DNA of 34,851 nucleotides from Bacteroidaceae bacterium (GTDB lineage: Bacteria > Bacteroidota > Bacteroidia > Bacteroidales > Bacteroidaceae). This document shows positions 4,495 to 31,881 of this stretch, one piece after another. Both the position numbers and the translations under genes were made by a program. The stretch lies in contig JAFXVU010000031.1 of assembly GCA_017534705.1 (NCBI GenBank), positions 1 through 34,851 on the forward strand, written 5' to 3'. Below the pieces are notes generated by a model. It made no database searches, was not told the DNA's origin, and was given only the letters and a program-made list of their open reading frames with translations. Position 1 is the stretch's first letter, and each line of letters begins with the position of its first letter.

Positions 4495-4650
4495 GCTCGA
4501 TTTTTCTTCTTTTAGCTTCGCCGAAATTACTACATCTCGGCATAAGAAATAAACGAGTTTATTTCGTTCTGCGCTCGATTTTTCTTCTTTTGGCTTCACC
4601 GAAATTACTACATCTCGGCATAAGAAATAAACGAGTTTATTTCGTTCTGC
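4495..4650. repeat. Two perfectly phased 78-bp tandem repeats with inner palindromes
   Basis: Copies at 4495-4572 and 4573-4650 are almost identical. Partial copies flank them: part of the unit at about 4451-4494, and the first dozen bases again from 4651. Each unit carries two inverted repeats: GCCGA...TCGGC (one arm partly changed in the second copy) and the perfect dyad GAAATAAAC-GA-GTTTATTTC. On the minus strand each unit also shows TAATTTCG, one base from the -7 consensus. The trailing partial copy merges into the rsmA promoter. The block lies between divergent genes. Confidence 0.88.
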
Positions 4651-4671
4651 GCTCGATTTTTCGTAATTTTG
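4642..4671 (+). promoter_or_regulatory. Putative rsmA promoter at the end of the 78-bp repeats
   Basis: TAATTTTG at 4664-4671 fits the Bacteroidota -7 consensus TAnnTTTG. A weak -33-like TTCG lies 19 bases upstream and is supplied by the tail of the second repeat copy. The rsmA ATG follows 82 bases later. Confidence 0.55.
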
Positions 4672-11212: not shown

Positions 11213-13723
11213 TTATCTGTGTAAAGACACACCTGACGAGGCAGTGAACGTCACTTCTGCGGGTTGCAAACCATCGGCCTCTGCGACGACAGTGACAGAG
11301 CCTGGACGGTCGGCGGCTATGATTGCGAGACATTTGCCCGACCAAGCTTTTCGCTCAGATGACTGCACAGAACCAAGGTCTGTCATATTGCCATTCTCAA
11401 CGCCTAAAAGACGACCGCCCTTCACCGTGAAACGAACAAGATTGTCGCTCAACGGACAGATGTTGCCTTCGGCATCAAGCACTTCGATGGTGACATGCGC
11501 CACATCGGATGGAATTGCGAGGAATGACGGACGGTCAACAGTGGCACGTAAACGGGAGGGAGCACCTGCGGTGCGAATCACCTCTTCCAAGACCACACTG
11601 TCGCGAACCCCCACAACCTTAATCTCTCCAGGCTGGTATTCCACGTCCCACGTCAGATGGAGGTCGGCGGTTGTGGCGAAATGCTTGCCGGGGTCGTAGG
11701 AAGCCCAACTAGGATTGACACCACGACGTGGAAACTCCGTTGCCTTCTTTCCGTATGATTTTCCATTGACAAACAGTTCCACTTCCTCACAATTCGTGTA
11801 GCAAGCTACCTGCATGATTTGTCCCTCATGACCCTCCCAGTTCCAGTGAGGGAAAAGATGTAAGACAGGCTCATCGCTCCAAATGCTTTTGAAAAACCAA
11901 TATCCGTCCTTACAAAACCCGCAATTGTCAAGATAGCCGGACTGACTGCCACGCGAAGGCCACCACGACTCACCATAGTAATCGATTCCCGTCCACATGA
12001 AGTCACCAATGACATAGTCGTATGCAGTGGTGAACCGCCACCGATGTTCCACATCAATCAACTCACTGCTGATAAGTCCTCGGTTACGACGACCAAAAGG
12101 CCGTTGTTGCATTTGTTGTGGACTGAAACCATCTGCCCCTGCTCCCAACTGAGGAGGTGGCATTGTCCCTGTCCATTGATACTGCCGTCGTGGGCCACCC
12201 AATCCCGTTGATTCTGTAGCGACAACACGTCTGTTTGGAAAATCAGACTTATCAATAGCATAAAGCACTTCACGGCGTGTACGCCATCGGTCAGGGTAAT
12301 TATATCCGATGATATCGTTCTCGAAAGCAGCCAGGAACTCAGGCGAAGTAGGGCTGTTGGACGCTATTTCGTCGTTTCCGCTGGTAACTAATCTTGTATC
12401 GTCCAGACGATGGCAGATGGCAATCATCTCTGCCGCTTCTCCAGGTCCTTCCGCCGACCGTTGGTCACGTATTTCGTTGCCAATACTCCACATCACCACC
12501 GAGGGATGGTTTCTGTCGCGTGCCACCATGGCAGTCAGGTCACGTTCATGCCATTCACGGTAGTAAAGATGGTAATCTTGTTTGTTCTTGCCATTAATCC
12601 ATTGGTCGAAAGCCTCATCCATGACAAGAATGCCCATGCGGTCGCACAAGTCAAGAAACTCGGGTGCCGGTGGGTTGTGAGCGGTTCGGATGGCATTGCA
12701 ACCACCACTCTTGAGTATTTCCAGCCGACGTTCCCACACGCGTTCGGGAACGGCTGCACCGACTGCACCACCATCGTGGTGCAGATTGACACCTTTCATT
12801 TTCACTTGCTTGCCGTTCAACAAGAAACCCTTGTCAAGCGGATAATCAATAGTACGGATGCCTAAAGTATTGTCCACCACATCCACCACTCTCTTGCCTT
12901 CAAGGAGTGTGGAACGGAGTGTGTAGAGATAGGGCGTTTCCAAAGACCATGCCTGGGGATGACCAACGGTAACCGTCTGCTCATCGTTCATCATGGGTGA
13001 ATCTGTCATGACAACAGGTTTCTCGCTCTTTGCCACCGTGTTCCCCTTTGCGTCAATAATTTCATGACGCAAAACCAGCGTCCTATGACGTTTCTCACCA
13101 TTCTCCACTTCGGATTTCACTCTCACAACTGCCTCGTCATCATTCAGACTTATGGTACTATTGAACACACCCCATTTGGCAAAGTGGGTGGTTTCGGTCT
13201 CTACAAGTCGCACGTGGCGATAAATACCTGATCCTGTGTACCAGCGGGAATTGGTCTGCTGTGAGTTGTCAACCCTCACAGCAAGCACATTGCCCTTCTT
13301 CTTGAGATAGGGTGTAAGGTCGTAGGAAAAACTGGAATAGCCGTATGGCCATGTCCCCAATTCATGTCCATTAATCCAGACCGTACTGTTCATATAGACA
13401 CCGTCGAACTCGATGGTGTATAGTTTCCGGCTGTCGTAGTTTTTCACATCGAAAGTTTTCCTATACCACCCCAAGCCTGTGGGAAAGAACCCTATGCTCC
13501 CTCCTCCAGGATTGTCGCGTAGGTTTTCTCCCTCAATACTCCAGTCGTGTGGCACATTGAGCCTGCGCCAACTGCCATCATCGTATTCGAGTGACTGCGC
13601 TTTATCAACATCACCAAGATGAAAACGCCATCCCATATCCATATTGGTCATCTTGCGCGGCTGTGCGGAGACGTACGAAACAATCAACACAGCCATCAAG
13701 CAAAGAACGGTCAGTCTTTTCAT
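11213..13723 (-). CDS. Secreted GH2 beta-galactosidase-type glycoside hydrolase
   Basis: The 836-residue protein starts with a Sec signal (residues 1-20, ending VSAQ). Domain order is a GH2 sugar-binding jelly roll (about 30-180), an Ig-like domain (185-290), a TIM-barrel catalytic domain (295-590), a DUF4982-like region and a C-terminal Ig-like domain (about 690-836). The proposed acid/base is Glu417 in MWSIGNEIRD and the nucleophile Glu504 in VATESTG. The segments NVPHDWSIEG and GSGIYRHV are typical of Bacteroidota GH2 galactosidases. Known GH2 activities include beta-galactosidase, beta-glucuronidase and beta-mannosidase. Beta-galactosidase is favoured here because the GH53 gene lies immediately upstream in the same operon (gap 53 bases) and would supply beta-1,4-galacto-oligosaccharides. 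Confidence 0.9.
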   Translation of the reverse strand: MKRLTVLCLMAVLIVSYVSAQPRKMTNMDMGWRFHLGDVDKAQSLEYDDGSWRRLNVPHDWSIEGENLRDNPGGGSIGFFPTGLGWYRKTFDVKNYDSRKLYTIEFDGVYMNSTVWINGHELGTWPYGYSSFSYDLTPYLKKKGNVLAVRVDNSQQTNSRWYTGSGIYRHVRLVETETTHFAKWGVFNSTISLNDDEAVVRVKSEVENGEKRHRTLVLRHEIIDAKGNTVAKSEKPVVMTDSPMMNDEQTVTVGHPQAWSLETPYLYTLRSTLLEGKRVVDVVDNTLGIRTIDYPLDKGFLLNGKQVKMKGVNLHHDGGAVGAAVPERVWERRLEILKSGGCNAIRTAHNPPAPEFLDLCDRMGILVMDEAFDQWINGKNKQDYHLYYREWHERDLTAMVARDRNHPSVVMWSIGNEIRDQRSAEGPGEAAEMIAICHRLDDTRLVTSGNDEIASNSPTSPEFLAAFENDIIGYNYPDRWRTRREVLYAIDKSDFPNRRVVATESTGLGGPRRQYQWTGTMPPPQLGAGADGFSPQQMQQRPFGRRNRGLISSELIDVEHRWRFTTAYDYVIGDFMWTGIDYYGESWWPSRGSQSGYLDNCGFCKDGYWFFKSIWSDEPVLHLFPHWNWEGHEGQIMQVACYTNCEEVELFVNGKSYGKKATEFPRRGVNPSWASYDPGKHFATTADLHLTWDVEYQPGEIKVVGVRDSVVLEEVIRTAGAPSRLRATVDRPSFLAIPSDVAHVTIEVLDAEGNICPLSDNLVRFTVKGGRLLGVENGNMTDLGSVQSSERKAWSGKCLAIIAADRPGSVTVVAEADGLQPAEVTFTASSGVSLHR

Positions 13724-28307: not shown

Positions 28308-28811
28308 TCATTCATCGGGAAACTTGTCTTCCTCCCTTGCTCTTTTATGCATCTTGTGAAGGAAGAAATTGAAAGCCTCGTAGCAAATCATCACCAAAGT
28401 TGTGCTGACTGCTGCCACCACATACATGCCGACACCACAGGCCATGCCGATGGCGGCTGTCACCCAGAGTCCTGCCGCAGTGGTAAGACCACGAACCACA
28501 TTCTTCTGCAAGATAATGGTTCCAGCACCAATGAAACCGATGCCTGTAACCACCTGGGCGGCTATACGGGCAGGGTCAAGCCTCAAAGCGTTGAGATGCT
28601 CGCGCATATTGTCCTCATGCGCCAAGGATTCGTTGGCAAAGAACTCATAATCGAAGCCGTGAACCGAGATAATCATAAACAAGGCTGAACCAAGGGCCAC
28701 CAGCACATGGGTGCGGAATCCAGCCGCCTTGGTGCGGTATTCACGGTCAATGCCAATGATGGCGCCAAGCACAGTGGCGATGAAGATTCTTAATACAAAT
28801 TCTCCAGTCAT
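28308..28811 (-). CDS. MgtC/SapB-family inner-membrane protein
   Basis: The 167-residue protein has four or five membrane spans. The family pattern is clear: RIFIATVLGAIIGIDREYRTKAAGFRTH near 8-35, LVALGSALFM, VVTGIGFIGAGTIIL near 90-105 and VRGLTTAAGLWVTAAIGMACG near 110-130. MgtC-type proteins affect magnesium-limited growth and membrane energetics in other bacteria; the molecular activity is uncertain. The length fits members lacking the C-terminal ACT-like domain. The start at 28811 (MTGEFVLRIF) is preferred to an ATG seven codons upstream. A -7-like TAATTTTG is on this strand at 28847-28854. The product ends in a charged tail (HKRAREEDKFPDE). Confidence 0.9.
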   Translation of the reverse strand: MTGEFVLRIFIATVLGAIIGIDREYRTKAAGFRTHVLVALGSALFMIISVHGFDYEFFANESLAHEDNMREHLNALRLDPARIAAQVVTGIGFIGAGTIILQKNVVRGLTTAAGLWVTAAIGMACGVGMYVVAAVSTTLVMICYEAFNFFLHKMHKRAREEDKFPDE

Positions 28812-28974
28812 AGTTATGTTTTTAGGTTTCAAATTGCAATATTAGTCAAAATTATCCAAATATCAAAAAAAGAGCCTCGAAAACTGCTTCAAGGCAACTT
28901 TCAAGGCTTTCAAGGCTGGAAAAGAGTGTTGAAAAATGCTTTTTTATCGAACAACCAAGAATTTTGTTATAAAT

Positions 28975-29034
28975 ATGATAATCATGTTTATGATAATTGA
29001 ATTTATGATAACAATATTCATGATTATAGTAGGT
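28975..29034 (+). repeat. Four degenerate 15-bp tandem units (TATGATAA core)
   Basis: TATGATAA starts at 28975, 28990 and 29005, exactly 15 bp apart, and a weaker fourth unit (CATGATTA) starts at 29020. The array ends about 54 bases upstream of the -7 element at 29088, a position suited to an activator or nucleoid-protein site. Function is inferred. Confidence 0.65.
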
Positions 29035-29087
29035 CTACTTTTTGACAAAAAACACATGAAGTATCTCCATTTTTGAAATAGATGTTA

Positions 29088-29095
29088 TATCTTTG
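29088..29095 (+). promoter_or_regulatory. -7 promoter element of the acyl-activating/acyltransferase fusion gene
   Basis: TATCTTTG matches TAnnTTTG; the next base is C, as often found. A -33 element at the right spacing is not evident. The ATG is 116 bases further. Confidence 0.5.
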
Positions 29096-29211
29096 CAATC
29101 ATAATATAAAAGAGAACAGACTCCATCCATTGCCACTCATCCCTGCGAAATAATCAAGGATGAACTGAGGGAACGCTGGAAAATGTAACTTGACTATAAA
29201 ACCAATCCATA

Positions 29212-31716
29212 ATGCTCAAGGATTTCAATAAGGATGCGATTATCACTCTCGACCACAGTGTTTCGTACCGAGAGATGTTGCAACGCATCACACTTTTCGC
29301 CAGACATTTACCGGTTTCTTCCTCTGAGGAAGCCTCAGCGCCTGTGGAACAGCGGAGGAAAGTGATTATATTCTCCGAGAACCGAGAAGGATATGTCTAT
29401 GCCTTTTTCTCCGTGTGGCTCAACCGAGGCATAGCCATCCCTGTGGATGCCATGGCCAGCGTTCAGGAGTTGGCCTACCTGATCTCTGACTGCCAGCCCG
29501 TGGCAATATGGACCAGCAAGTCGAGGGAGCAGGCGGTTCGAGATGCACTGGCTGAGGCTAACATAGAAGCCAAAGTCTTGCTGATTGATGACTACGAGCG
29601 CGAAGAAGTTCCAACCGAGACGCCTGTCGCCAAGATTGACTATGAGATGGACCATACCGCCATCATCATCTATACTTCCGGCACCACGGGAAATCCCAAA
29701 GGCGTGATGCTCTCCTTCTGCAACCTCCTGACCAACCTGCGTGCTGTGTCGGAAGAAGTGCCTATCATTCGCCCGTCACGCCGTGTGCTGACATTGTTGC
29801 CTTTGCACCATGTACTGCCCCTTCAAGGCACAATGCTTGTGCCTCTCATCATCGGTGCAGGCATAGCCATCTCTCCTTCCATGGCCGCCGACGACCTGAT
29901 GCAGACCCTTCAGGTCGGCAAGGTTGGTGCTATTGTAGGTGTTCCCCGTCTGTGGCAGACTCTTTATAATGGCATCAAGAAGAAAATTGACGCATCGGTC
30001 GTTACTCGTTCTCTTTACAATCTGTGCAAAACCGTGAACAGCTTGAGTCTCTCTCGCACCGTCTTCAAAAAAGTGCACCAAATGCTGGGTGGTCATCTCG
30101 AGGCCTGCGTGAGCGGTGGGGCCGCCCTCGACCCTGCACTGTGGAAAGGGATGCACGTGTTGGGAATAGAACTCATCGAGGGCTACGGCATGACGGAATG
30201 CGCGCCCATCATCGCTTTCAGCCGCCCCGACGACCTGCGACCAGGTTGTGTGGGCCAGTCCCTTCCTTCCTGTCAAGTGGAAATCAAGGACGGCGAGATT
30301 TGTGCCAAAGGTGCCAATGTGATGCAAGGCTATTACAAACGCCCAGATGCCACCGCCGAAATCATCGACGCTGACGGATGGCTGCATTCAGGTGACTTAG
30401 GCCATATGGACGAACAAGGACATGTGTTCATCACTGGACGTAAGAAAGAGATGATTGTGCTGTCGAACGGCAAGAACATCAATCCCGAGGAACTGGAACA
30501 GCATCTGCAGGAAGACACTCTCCGCGTGAAAGAGGCTGCCGTGGTGGAAGCCGACAATGTGCTGAAAGCCATCATCTGCCCACAGGCTAAATGGGCGAAG
30601 GACAAGAGTATGGCACAAATCGAGGAGGAGCTGAAACGTGAAGTGGTGGATAAAGTGAACAGTGAGGTGGCATCCTACAAGACCATCCAAGGCATCTTCG
30701 TCTATAACGGTGAGTTGCCCCGCACCCGACTCGACAAACTGCAGCGTTTCAAACTGGCGGCTGTGGTGGAGAGCTGCAAGTCGGACAATGACAACACCCG
30801 CACTTTCGTGGCCGAACAACCCACCACCGAGGAGTTCGTCCTCATCCATCAGTACATCCAGAAAGAGAAGAAAGTAGACTCCCTGGCTGAGGACAACCTT
30901 GTCACCGACCTCGGTTTCGACTCGCTCGACATGGTGGAGTTCGAGTGCTTCCTTGACCAGACTTTCGGCATTGAGATGACACAGAAAGAGATTCTCTCCT
31001 GCCCCAACATCGGCAAACTCGCAGAGTACATCCGCCAGAACAAGACACGGGTGATGCTCGAGGACATCAACTGGCGACAACTCATCCTCTCCGACAAAAG
31101 GCAAATCCATATTCCCCAGATGTCGGCATCTGGATGGTGGATAATACAATGCACCAAGGCGCTGACTAAATCGTATTTCAGCATGAAGCAGAAGGGTATG
31201 GAACATATTCCACAGACGGGCAACTTCATCATGGTGGCCAACCACCAGAGTTACCTCGATGTCTTGTTCCTGACTCAAGGGATGCCCAAGGAGCAATTCC
31301 TCAACACACGATTCTTCGCCAAGGAAGAACATGTCAGTTCGGGCTTTAACAAGCGGTTCGCAGCCAGCCATGGTGTCATCGTACTGAAGAAAGCGAAAAT
31401 GAAAGACAGCATTCTCAACCTCGGACAAGCTCTCCGCGCGGGCCACAACCTCGTCATCTTCCCCGAAGGCACACGTACACTGGATGGCCATCTGAACGAG
31501 TTCCGCCCCACCTTCGCCATCCTCAGTATGACTCTCGGAATCCCTGTGGTTCCTGTATGCATCAAGGGAGCATTCGAAGCCATGCCCAAGCACCAGAAGA
31601 TGCCTAAGCGCTGTCCTGTCAGTGTGGAATACCTGCCTGTACTCTACCCCACCGACTTTCAATCAGAAACGGAGATGGCGAACGCCGTACGACAAATCAT
31701 TCAACTTCACTTGTAA
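29212..31716 (+). CDS. Trifunctional lipid enzyme: acyl-AMP ligase, acyl carrier domain, PlsC acyltransferase
   Basis: The 834-residue protein contains three domains. Residues 1-530 are an AMP-binding acyl-activating enzyme: P-loop IYTSGTTGNPKGVML near 153-167, EGYGMTEC near 322-329 and the hinge ITGRKKEMIVLSNGKNINPEE near 407-427. Residues about 540-620 are an acyl carrier domain with DLGFDSLDMVEFE, whose Ser (about 570) would carry phosphopantetheine. Residues about 640-834 are a PlsC-type acyltransferase with NHQSYLD (HX4D, near 677) and FPEGTRT (near 749). The logical reaction is to activate a fatty acid, load it on the internal carrier and transfer it to a lysolipid or similar acceptor; this is inferred. 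E. coli Aas joins acyltransferase and ligase in the opposite order without a carrier domain. A phased 15-bp array lies upstream and a long hairpin follows the stop. Confidence 0.9.
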   Translation: MLKDFNKDAIITLDHSVSYREMLQRITLFARHLPVSSSEEASAPVEQRRKVIIFSENREGYVYAFFSVWLNRGIAIPVDAMASVQELAYLISDCQPVAIWTSKSREQAVRDALAEANIEAKVLLIDDYEREEVPTETPVAKIDYEMDHTAIIIYTSGTTGNPKGVMLSFCNLLTNLRAVSEEVPIIRPSRRVLTLLPLHHVLPLQGTMLVPLIIGAGIAISPSMAADDLMQTLQVGKVGAIVGVPRLWQTLYNGIKKKIDASVVTRSLYNLCKTVNSLSLSRTVFKKVHQMLGGHLEACVSGGAALDPALWKGMHVLGIELIEGYGMTECAPIIAFSRPDDLRPGCVGQSLPSCQVEIKDGEICAKGANVMQGYYKRPDATAEIIDADGWLHSGDLGHMDEQGHVFITGRKKEMIVLSNGKNINPEELEQHLQEDTLRVKEAAVVEADNVLKAIICPQAKWAKDKSMAQIEEELKREVVDKVNSEVASYKTIQGIFVYNGELPRTRLDKLQRFKLAAVVESCKSDNDNTRTFVAEQPTTEEFVLIHQYIQKEKKVDSLAEDNLVTDLGFDSLDMVEFECFLDQTFGIEMTQKEILSCPNIGKLAEYIRQNKTRVMLEDINWRQLILSDKRQIHIPQMSASGWWIIQCTKALTKSYFSMKQKGMEHIPQTGNFIMVANHQSYLDVLFLTQGMPKEQFLNTRFFAKEEHVSSGFNKRFAASHGVIVLKKAKMKDSILNLGQALRAGHNLVIFPEGTRTLDGHLNEFRPTFAILSMTLGIPVVPVCIKGAFEAMPKHQKMPKRCPVSVEYLPVLYPTDFQSETEMANAVRQIIQLHL

Positions 31717-31812: not shown

Positions 31813-31881
31813 TTAACTCCCTTTTTAACTCCCTTATTTAATTTAACTTCCCTTTTAACTCCCTTTTTAAATATAACTCCC
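31813..31881. repeat. Five TTAACTCCC motifs in a 30-bp repeating pattern
   Basis: Copies start at 31813, 31825, 31843, 31855 and 31873, i.e. spacings 12, 18, 12, 18, so the underlying unit is 30 bp with two motifs each. A tiny GCAC-GAAA-GTGC hairpin lies just before it at 31801-31812. The tract ends 8 bases before the minus-strand stop at 31890. Confidence 0.75.

Follow-up and report, generated by a model that had tools for sequence, protein, structure and literature searches.

A tandem array of short dyads upstream of a Bacteroidaceae lipid ligase gene: a probable relic operator of a lost ATPase_2 gene

The ParA proteins of type Ia plasmids (F, P1, P7) combine a Walker ATPase with a winged helix and regulate their own operon via inverted repeats in its promoter (PMC8465637). 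BrxR, a WYL-domain regulator of phage-defence islands, recognises inverted repeats close to the promoter of its own gene; a search of the upstream 200 bp yielded inverted repeats for 193 of 347 homologues (PMC9122601). The two systems are precedents for two halves of the situation proposed below: ParA for self-regulation by an ATPase at the promoter, and BrxR for control through inverted repeats by a regulator from a defence island. SSO1545, whose similarity to the proteins considered here is described further on, is listed among the structural homologues of Cdc6/Orc1 in PMC4599002.

The locus studied here is a short tandem array upstream of a lipid ligase gene in the window, that is, the whole stretch of DNA analysed (34,851 nucleotides from a Bacteroidaceae genome). 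In a genus relative, a similar array lies upstream of a gene of the ATPase_2 family. We estimate at roughly 0.6 the probability that the array of the window is a relic autoregulatory operator of an ATPase_2 gene that has been lost, the dyads being putative binding sites of its product. The likeness to ParA consists in an ATPase that has a candidate helix-turn-helix-type domain and whose promoter is surrounded by several symmetrical sites. However, ParA belongs to the ParA/MinD family rather than to ATPase_2, its DNA-binding domain is N-terminal, whereas that of ATPase_2 would be C-terminal, and its inverted repeats have internal spacings of 26-29 bp, unlike the tandem 14-bp dyads found here. 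With BrxR the locus would share the general design of a defence-island regulator acting on inverted repeats near its own promoter. BrxR, however, is a WYL-domain transcription factor and not an ATPase, and each of its boxes consists of two repeats 5 bp apart, as opposed to tandem dyads of 14-15 bp. Moreover, binding has been demonstrated for ParA, and gel shifts exist for BrxR; for ATPase_2, binding is predicted from sequence. Among the openly licensed matches listed, titles and the beginnings of abstracts revealed no paper on this ATPase family or on such operators, and the available part of PMC4158269 contained nothing bearing on either.

The array occupies positions 28966-29024 of the forward strand, as delimited by the sequence itself and by its match to contig C92 of the relative G003. 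It consists of four dyad-like units of 14 bp with a 15-bp pitch (28966-28979, 28981-28994, 28996-29009, 29011-29024), which we read as ATCAT-N4-ATGAT followed by a one-base spacer. The right half ATGAT is present in all four units. The left halves are, in order, GTTAT, ATCAT, ATTGA and ACAAT; both half-sites are exact only in unit 28981-28994 (five of seven pairs), and the other three left halves are decayed. The preliminary description had reported three exact 8-mer cores and a weaker fourth at 15-bp steps, and these were recovered on the forward strand: TATGATAA is exact at 28974-28981, 28989-28996 and 29004-29011, and a degenerate core with two mismatches, CATGATTA, is found at 29019-29026. 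In terms of the dyad, TATGATAA would correspond to the right half plus the spacer. The units had also been called phased. The step is indeed regular, but a pitch of 15 bp corresponds to about 1.4 helical turns, and thus the units are not aligned along the same side of the helix.

After dinucleotide shuffling of the window, the three-core pattern with up to three mismatches was recovered in none of 100 trials. No other 8-mer of the 34.9-kb window is present in three copies whose spacing is constant and between 8 and 40 bp. Shuffling gave no constant-step triple of 8-mers either, in 5000 trials with the local 379 bp and in 5000 with the AT-rich 171-bp core. An RNA hairpin was considered and set aside, the strand folding only moderately better than its shuffles (z -1.85; 8 of 200).

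The array is situated in a variable interval between an mgtC/sapB-family gene and the ligase gene. The former (28308-28832, reverse strand; PF02308, E 7.5e-42) forms the left border and, judging by translation and alignment, adjoins the interval in G002 and G003 as well. The flank that follows it, 28833-28963, is colinear with G002 (window 28800-28963 against locus L044), and at the point where the window becomes array, G002 continues with debris of an ATPase 3'-end. Beyond the array, positions 29040-29100 of the forward strand form a promoter-like segment similar to the promoter of an AAA_14/DUF4143 gene of G003 (C66:694-755; 48 of 63 aligned columns, a score reached by none of 500 mononucleotide shuffles). 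Within it lies TATCTTTG (29088-29095, forward strand), a candidate -7 element of the TAnnTTTG type. The array is 62-114 bp upstream of this element, close to the 50-110 bases given previously. Then follows debris of a candidate higA-like antitoxin gene (29120-29179, forward strand), which reads IATHPCEIIKDELRER... with a stop soon after. The name is our reading of an alignment whose score is 34, compared with 26 for the best of 500 shuffles; in G003 the corresponding gene, immediately before that of the ligase, encodes an HTH_3 protein. The ligase gene itself (29212-31716, forward strand), termed the lipid enzyme in the preliminary description, encodes an 834-residue fusion of AMP-binding ligase, PP-binding and acyltransferase domains (PF00501, PF00550, PF01553). 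According to the open reading frames and domain matches, no ATPase gene adjoins the array in the window, and for this reason the array is called a relic. The earlier remark that no obvious regulator is adjacent is thus true of the window, from which the ATPase, as the likely regulator, is absent.

The ligases of the genus relatives are 94% (G002), 84% (G001) and 76% (G003) identical to that of the window. The array had been tied to the lipid enzyme, with conservation in relatives proposed as a check. It is not kept at the ligase in any of the three relatives, being absent from the upstream 1.8 kb in each of them, and in G003 the two are about 13 kb apart; the array as an element of the ligase was therefore rejected.

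A DNA search with the array in four genus genomes gave matches, beyond the window's own genome, only in G003, where contig C92 ends and contig C66 begins. C92 contains, in this order, mgtC, an ATPase_2 gene on the reverse strand, and (TTTATGATTATTATG)n of at least four units running to the contig end. Both gene order and array orientation are the same as in the window, the ATPase_2 gene being extra in C92. Window positions 28946-29027 align with C92:13761-13842, upstream of the ATPase, with 64 of 83 aligned columns identical. The array has a high AT content and low complexity, and its match to C92 could therefore reflect a common motif and not descent. The homology of positions 28946-28963 to the upstream side in C92 is ambiguous, because these positions match also the side downstream of the ATPase in G002.

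C66 starts with 19 residues of ATPase C-terminal debris and an array of 7.3 copies (Tandem Repeats Finder). They are followed by the apparent end of another gene, a 33-bp tandem repeat and an AAA_14/DUF4143 gene (PDC-S01, PADLOC). Further on the contig encodes two D12 DNA methylases, an AlwI-type restriction enzyme, and ZorA/ZorB-like, Sel1-repeat and SprT-like proteins. A higBA-like pair, whose higA-like member matches HTH_3, then precedes the ligase. The stretch separating array and ligase in G003 is rich in defence genes. The 33-bp repeat (CCCCAATTTTGCAACAAAAAACAGCCAAAGTAC; L074, 523-739; 6.6 copies with 91% matches) reaches the promoter of the AAA_14/DUF4143 gene, and is a tandem array at the promoter of another ATPase family. 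The two D12 methylases, the AlwI-type enzyme, the ZorA/ZorB-like and the Sel1-repeat proteins are encoded consecutively (L074, 2871-12091); among the ten C66 proteins scanned there was no additional Zorya component.

The two contigs share two short stretches. The first 55 bp of C66 recur in C92 at position 12545, on the 3' side of the ATPase gene, and C92 ends with 55 bp that recur in C66 at 176-230, inside the array. We read this as a probable branch of the assembly, with the array in both alleles; such matches would result from two alleles, of which one carries the ATPase gene and the other lacks it but retains the array. The locus of G002 retains a fragment of an ATPase C-terminus (C405:6516-6635; residues 335-374, 80% identity) and, in our reading, higA debris. 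Collapse of the island by deletions would be the simplest history. An ATPase_2 gene, read leftward, would formerly have separated mgtC from the array. In the lineage of the window this gene and the remainder of the defence-rich island would have been deleted, leaving the array, presumably deprived of its cognate protein, the AAA_14-like promoter and the higA-like debris before the lipid ligase.

There is no second multi-unit copy of the array in the genome of the window. A search for two cores with at most two mismatches gave four matches in the array and eight scattered ones, compared to three in the control, and no two of the scattered matches are 15 bp apart. One of the eight, the only one whose neighbourhood was inspected, is in contig C232 upstream of an ATPase_2 gene. 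The genome contains three ATPase_2 homologues, 46-51% identical to the ATPase of C92 and with different upstream sequences. As only a draft of this genome is available (274 contigs, 81.7% complete), a cognate ATPase may be encoded elsewhere in it.

One possibility is that the array is a live operator of the ligase or of mgtC, with the regulator, perhaps another ATPase_2 protein, encoded elsewhere. This would agree with the nearby promoter, the three homologues and the distribution of mismatches relative to a consensus of our choosing (5 of 44 in the first 11 positions of the unit, 9 of 16 in the last four, p 0.0008). However, the position bias is present also in the arrays of relatives and hence can be inherited, the three homologues have diverged from the C92 ATPase and follow other upstream sequences, the genome has no further multi-unit copy, and the three relatives lack the array before the ligase. 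On balance we consider a live operator unlikely. The array might also consist of sites of some other known regulator. It contains ATGATAATCAT at 28975-28985, which is similar to the core of the Fur box of E. coli, and the higA-like debris after the promoter could suggest a HigA operator of a decayed toxin-antitoxin pair. However, if a global regulator were involved, arrays like this one ought to occur at further genes, and none emerged from the genome search, while the higBA-like pair of G003 is some 13 kb from the array. Thus both variants seem very improbable.

The strict array pattern was found in 2 of 399 genomes of the family (G003 and G198). Among 393 genomes of the order, a panel that does not include G003 and G198, the relaxed pattern (at most two mismatches) was confined to the window's own genome. 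On these counts a widespread mobile minisatellite was rejected. The array of G198, which belongs to another genus, is of the 15-bp type with about four units (C79:58421-58461, L068) and lies beside a gene that we read as low-molecular-weight phosphatase-like. No ATPase is encoded within 1.5 kb on either side, and this genome (69% complete) contains no close ATPase of the C92 type, the best being 44% identical. Arrays can thus sit apart from the gene, as relics, trans-acting sites or plain repeats. In the 20 units of the four arrays (window, G003:C66, G003:C92, G198), positions 1-8 and 10 vary little, and positions 9, 12 and 15 are the most variable. The preliminary description had preferred protein binding to slippage; this uneven variation, together with the similar array upstream of a gene for a helix-turn-helix-like ATPase, lends the preference indirect support.

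The upstream regions of 40 ATPase_2 genes were compared, covering 15 of 18 genus matches and 25 of 26 newly fetched loci from the family search. Many of them contain two or three similar tandem elements of 14-15 bp near the promoter, whose sequence differs between paralogues; they include ATCATAAATATGAT, ATCCTAATTAGGAT, ATCATTTTTTGATA, ATACAAATTTGTAT, ACACAATTTTGTGT and ATACATTTTGTATA. The tandem signal was defined as a direct-repeat score at lags 13-16 within the last 120 bp, symmetry not being a part of the score. It was present in 20 of the 40 regions at p<=0.05 and in 15 at p<=0.01, counts which, like those of dyads below, ignore relatedness (L095 and L097, for example, are near copies). 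The other 20 regions are below the threshold, among them L086, which has a clear array farther upstream than the 120 bp scored. Ligase-type controls gave 2 of 28 at p<=0.05 and 0 of 28 at 0.01, five of the 28 (L006, L007, L013, L016, L018) being matches that start inside a gene, so that their upstream region is coding DNA. Without these five the counts are 2 of 23 and 0 of 23 (Fisher p 0.0007 and 0.0003). The controls from neighbouring genes gave 3 of 34 at p<=0.05 and 1 of 34 at 0.01; they are the AT-rich ones of 74 upstream regions of mechanically called neighbouring ORFs, some of which are perhaps not genes.

Perfect 5/5 dyads of 13-16 bp are present in 11 of the 20 flagged stretches. The mean expectation is 3.3, and 11 was reached in none of 1000 column shuffles, which preserve the tandem copies. 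Nine of the 20 have no perfect dyad, and L080 and L083 show no dyad at all. In single stretches the symmetry never beats that of their own shuffles (p 0.10-1.0), and the excess appears jointly. The closest other ATPase found, from a different genus (G097:C27, 73% identity), is preceded by the same dyad ATCATAAATATGAT as the ATPase of C92, and the half-sites ATCAT/ATGAT are common to the array of the window, G003:C92 and G097:C27. Over all pairs of the 40 genes, dyad similarity follows the identity of the C-terminal domain with the ATPase domain fixed (partial Mantel r 0.24, 2 of 2000 permutations) and not that of the ATPase domain with the C-terminal domain fixed (r -0.06); Mantel tests are known to be weak for related sequences, shared descent remains in both values, and the automatic choice of dyads failed for some promoters.

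These comparisons bear on the possibility that the array is a functionless neutral minisatellite, derived from an old tandem duplication of a 15-bp unit. Unit sequence does vary, as does unit number (four in the window, 7.3 in C66, at least four in C92, about four in G198), the runs of identical units in G003 resemble slippage copies, and the array of G198 has no ATPase beside it. However, slippage alone is insufficient to explain why tandem repeats of 13-16 bp, differing in sequence, are commoner at ATPase_2 promoters than at controls, and why dyads are in excess. A neutral minisatellite is therefore rather improbable in our judgement.

A profile of 20 ATPases matches the PDB structures 2fna (profile positions 11-365 of 370) and 2qen (103-365), and both matches extend through the C-terminal part. 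The former we take to be the archaeal AAA+ ATPase SSO1545, and the latter is a Walker-type ATPase; the similarity covers most of the ATPase_2 protein, including its C-terminal part. To our knowledge, no operator has been described for either of them. Weak Pfam matches were obtained, somewhere along the protein, to MarR_2, Sigma70_r4_2 and Penicillinase_R in two of the 20 members each, and to LexA in one of 20. Given our reading of the alignment, these weak matches and the two structures, the C-terminus of ATPase_2 looks like a helix-turn-helix domain, with a winged-helix appearance in the alignment. In the defence library the ATPase_2 of C92 has a marginal match only (PDC-S01, E 0.00097).

If the array is a relic operator, the following mechanism may be suggested for the lost gene. 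Firstly, copies of the ATPase (AAA+/STAND-like, with a helix-turn-helix-like domain at the C-terminus) would bind head-to-tail dyads of 14 bp with a 15-bp pitch upstream of their own promoter, and this binding would set the expression of the ATPase itself. Secondly, the protein would dimerise or oligomerise, its C-terminal domains filling the row of dyads. Finally, the ATP state or a ligand may alter the occupancy of the dyads.

A broader generalization, to which we give slightly less than even odds, is that ATPase_2 proteins with a C-terminal helix-turn-helix domain form a large Bacteroidales family in which each paralogue has a private tandem-dyad operator. The operator and the domain would diversify together, the genes would turn over in defence islands, and orphan arrays such as that of the window would be the fossils left behind. 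Taken alone, the array of the window would be a scar, and its value is that of a pointer to the pattern in the ATPase family, many copies of which seem to carry private, paralogue-specific operators. If so, these functionally unassigned ATPases may be DNA-reading, self-regulating switches, and orphan arrays may mark the sites of lost ATPase genes and defence islands. The case also illustrates how a regulatory-looking motif may end up before an unrelated metabolic gene.

Tandem repeats of other types occur elsewhere in the window. A 30-bp repeat of the TTAACTCCC type (31813-31881, 2.3 copies) follows the ligase gene at a distance of about 100 bp. Positions 4495-4662 contain a 78-bp repeat with 2.2 copies and 97% matches, and a 101-bp repeat at 1727-1917 (1.9 copies) overlaps smaller AATGGTC repeats.
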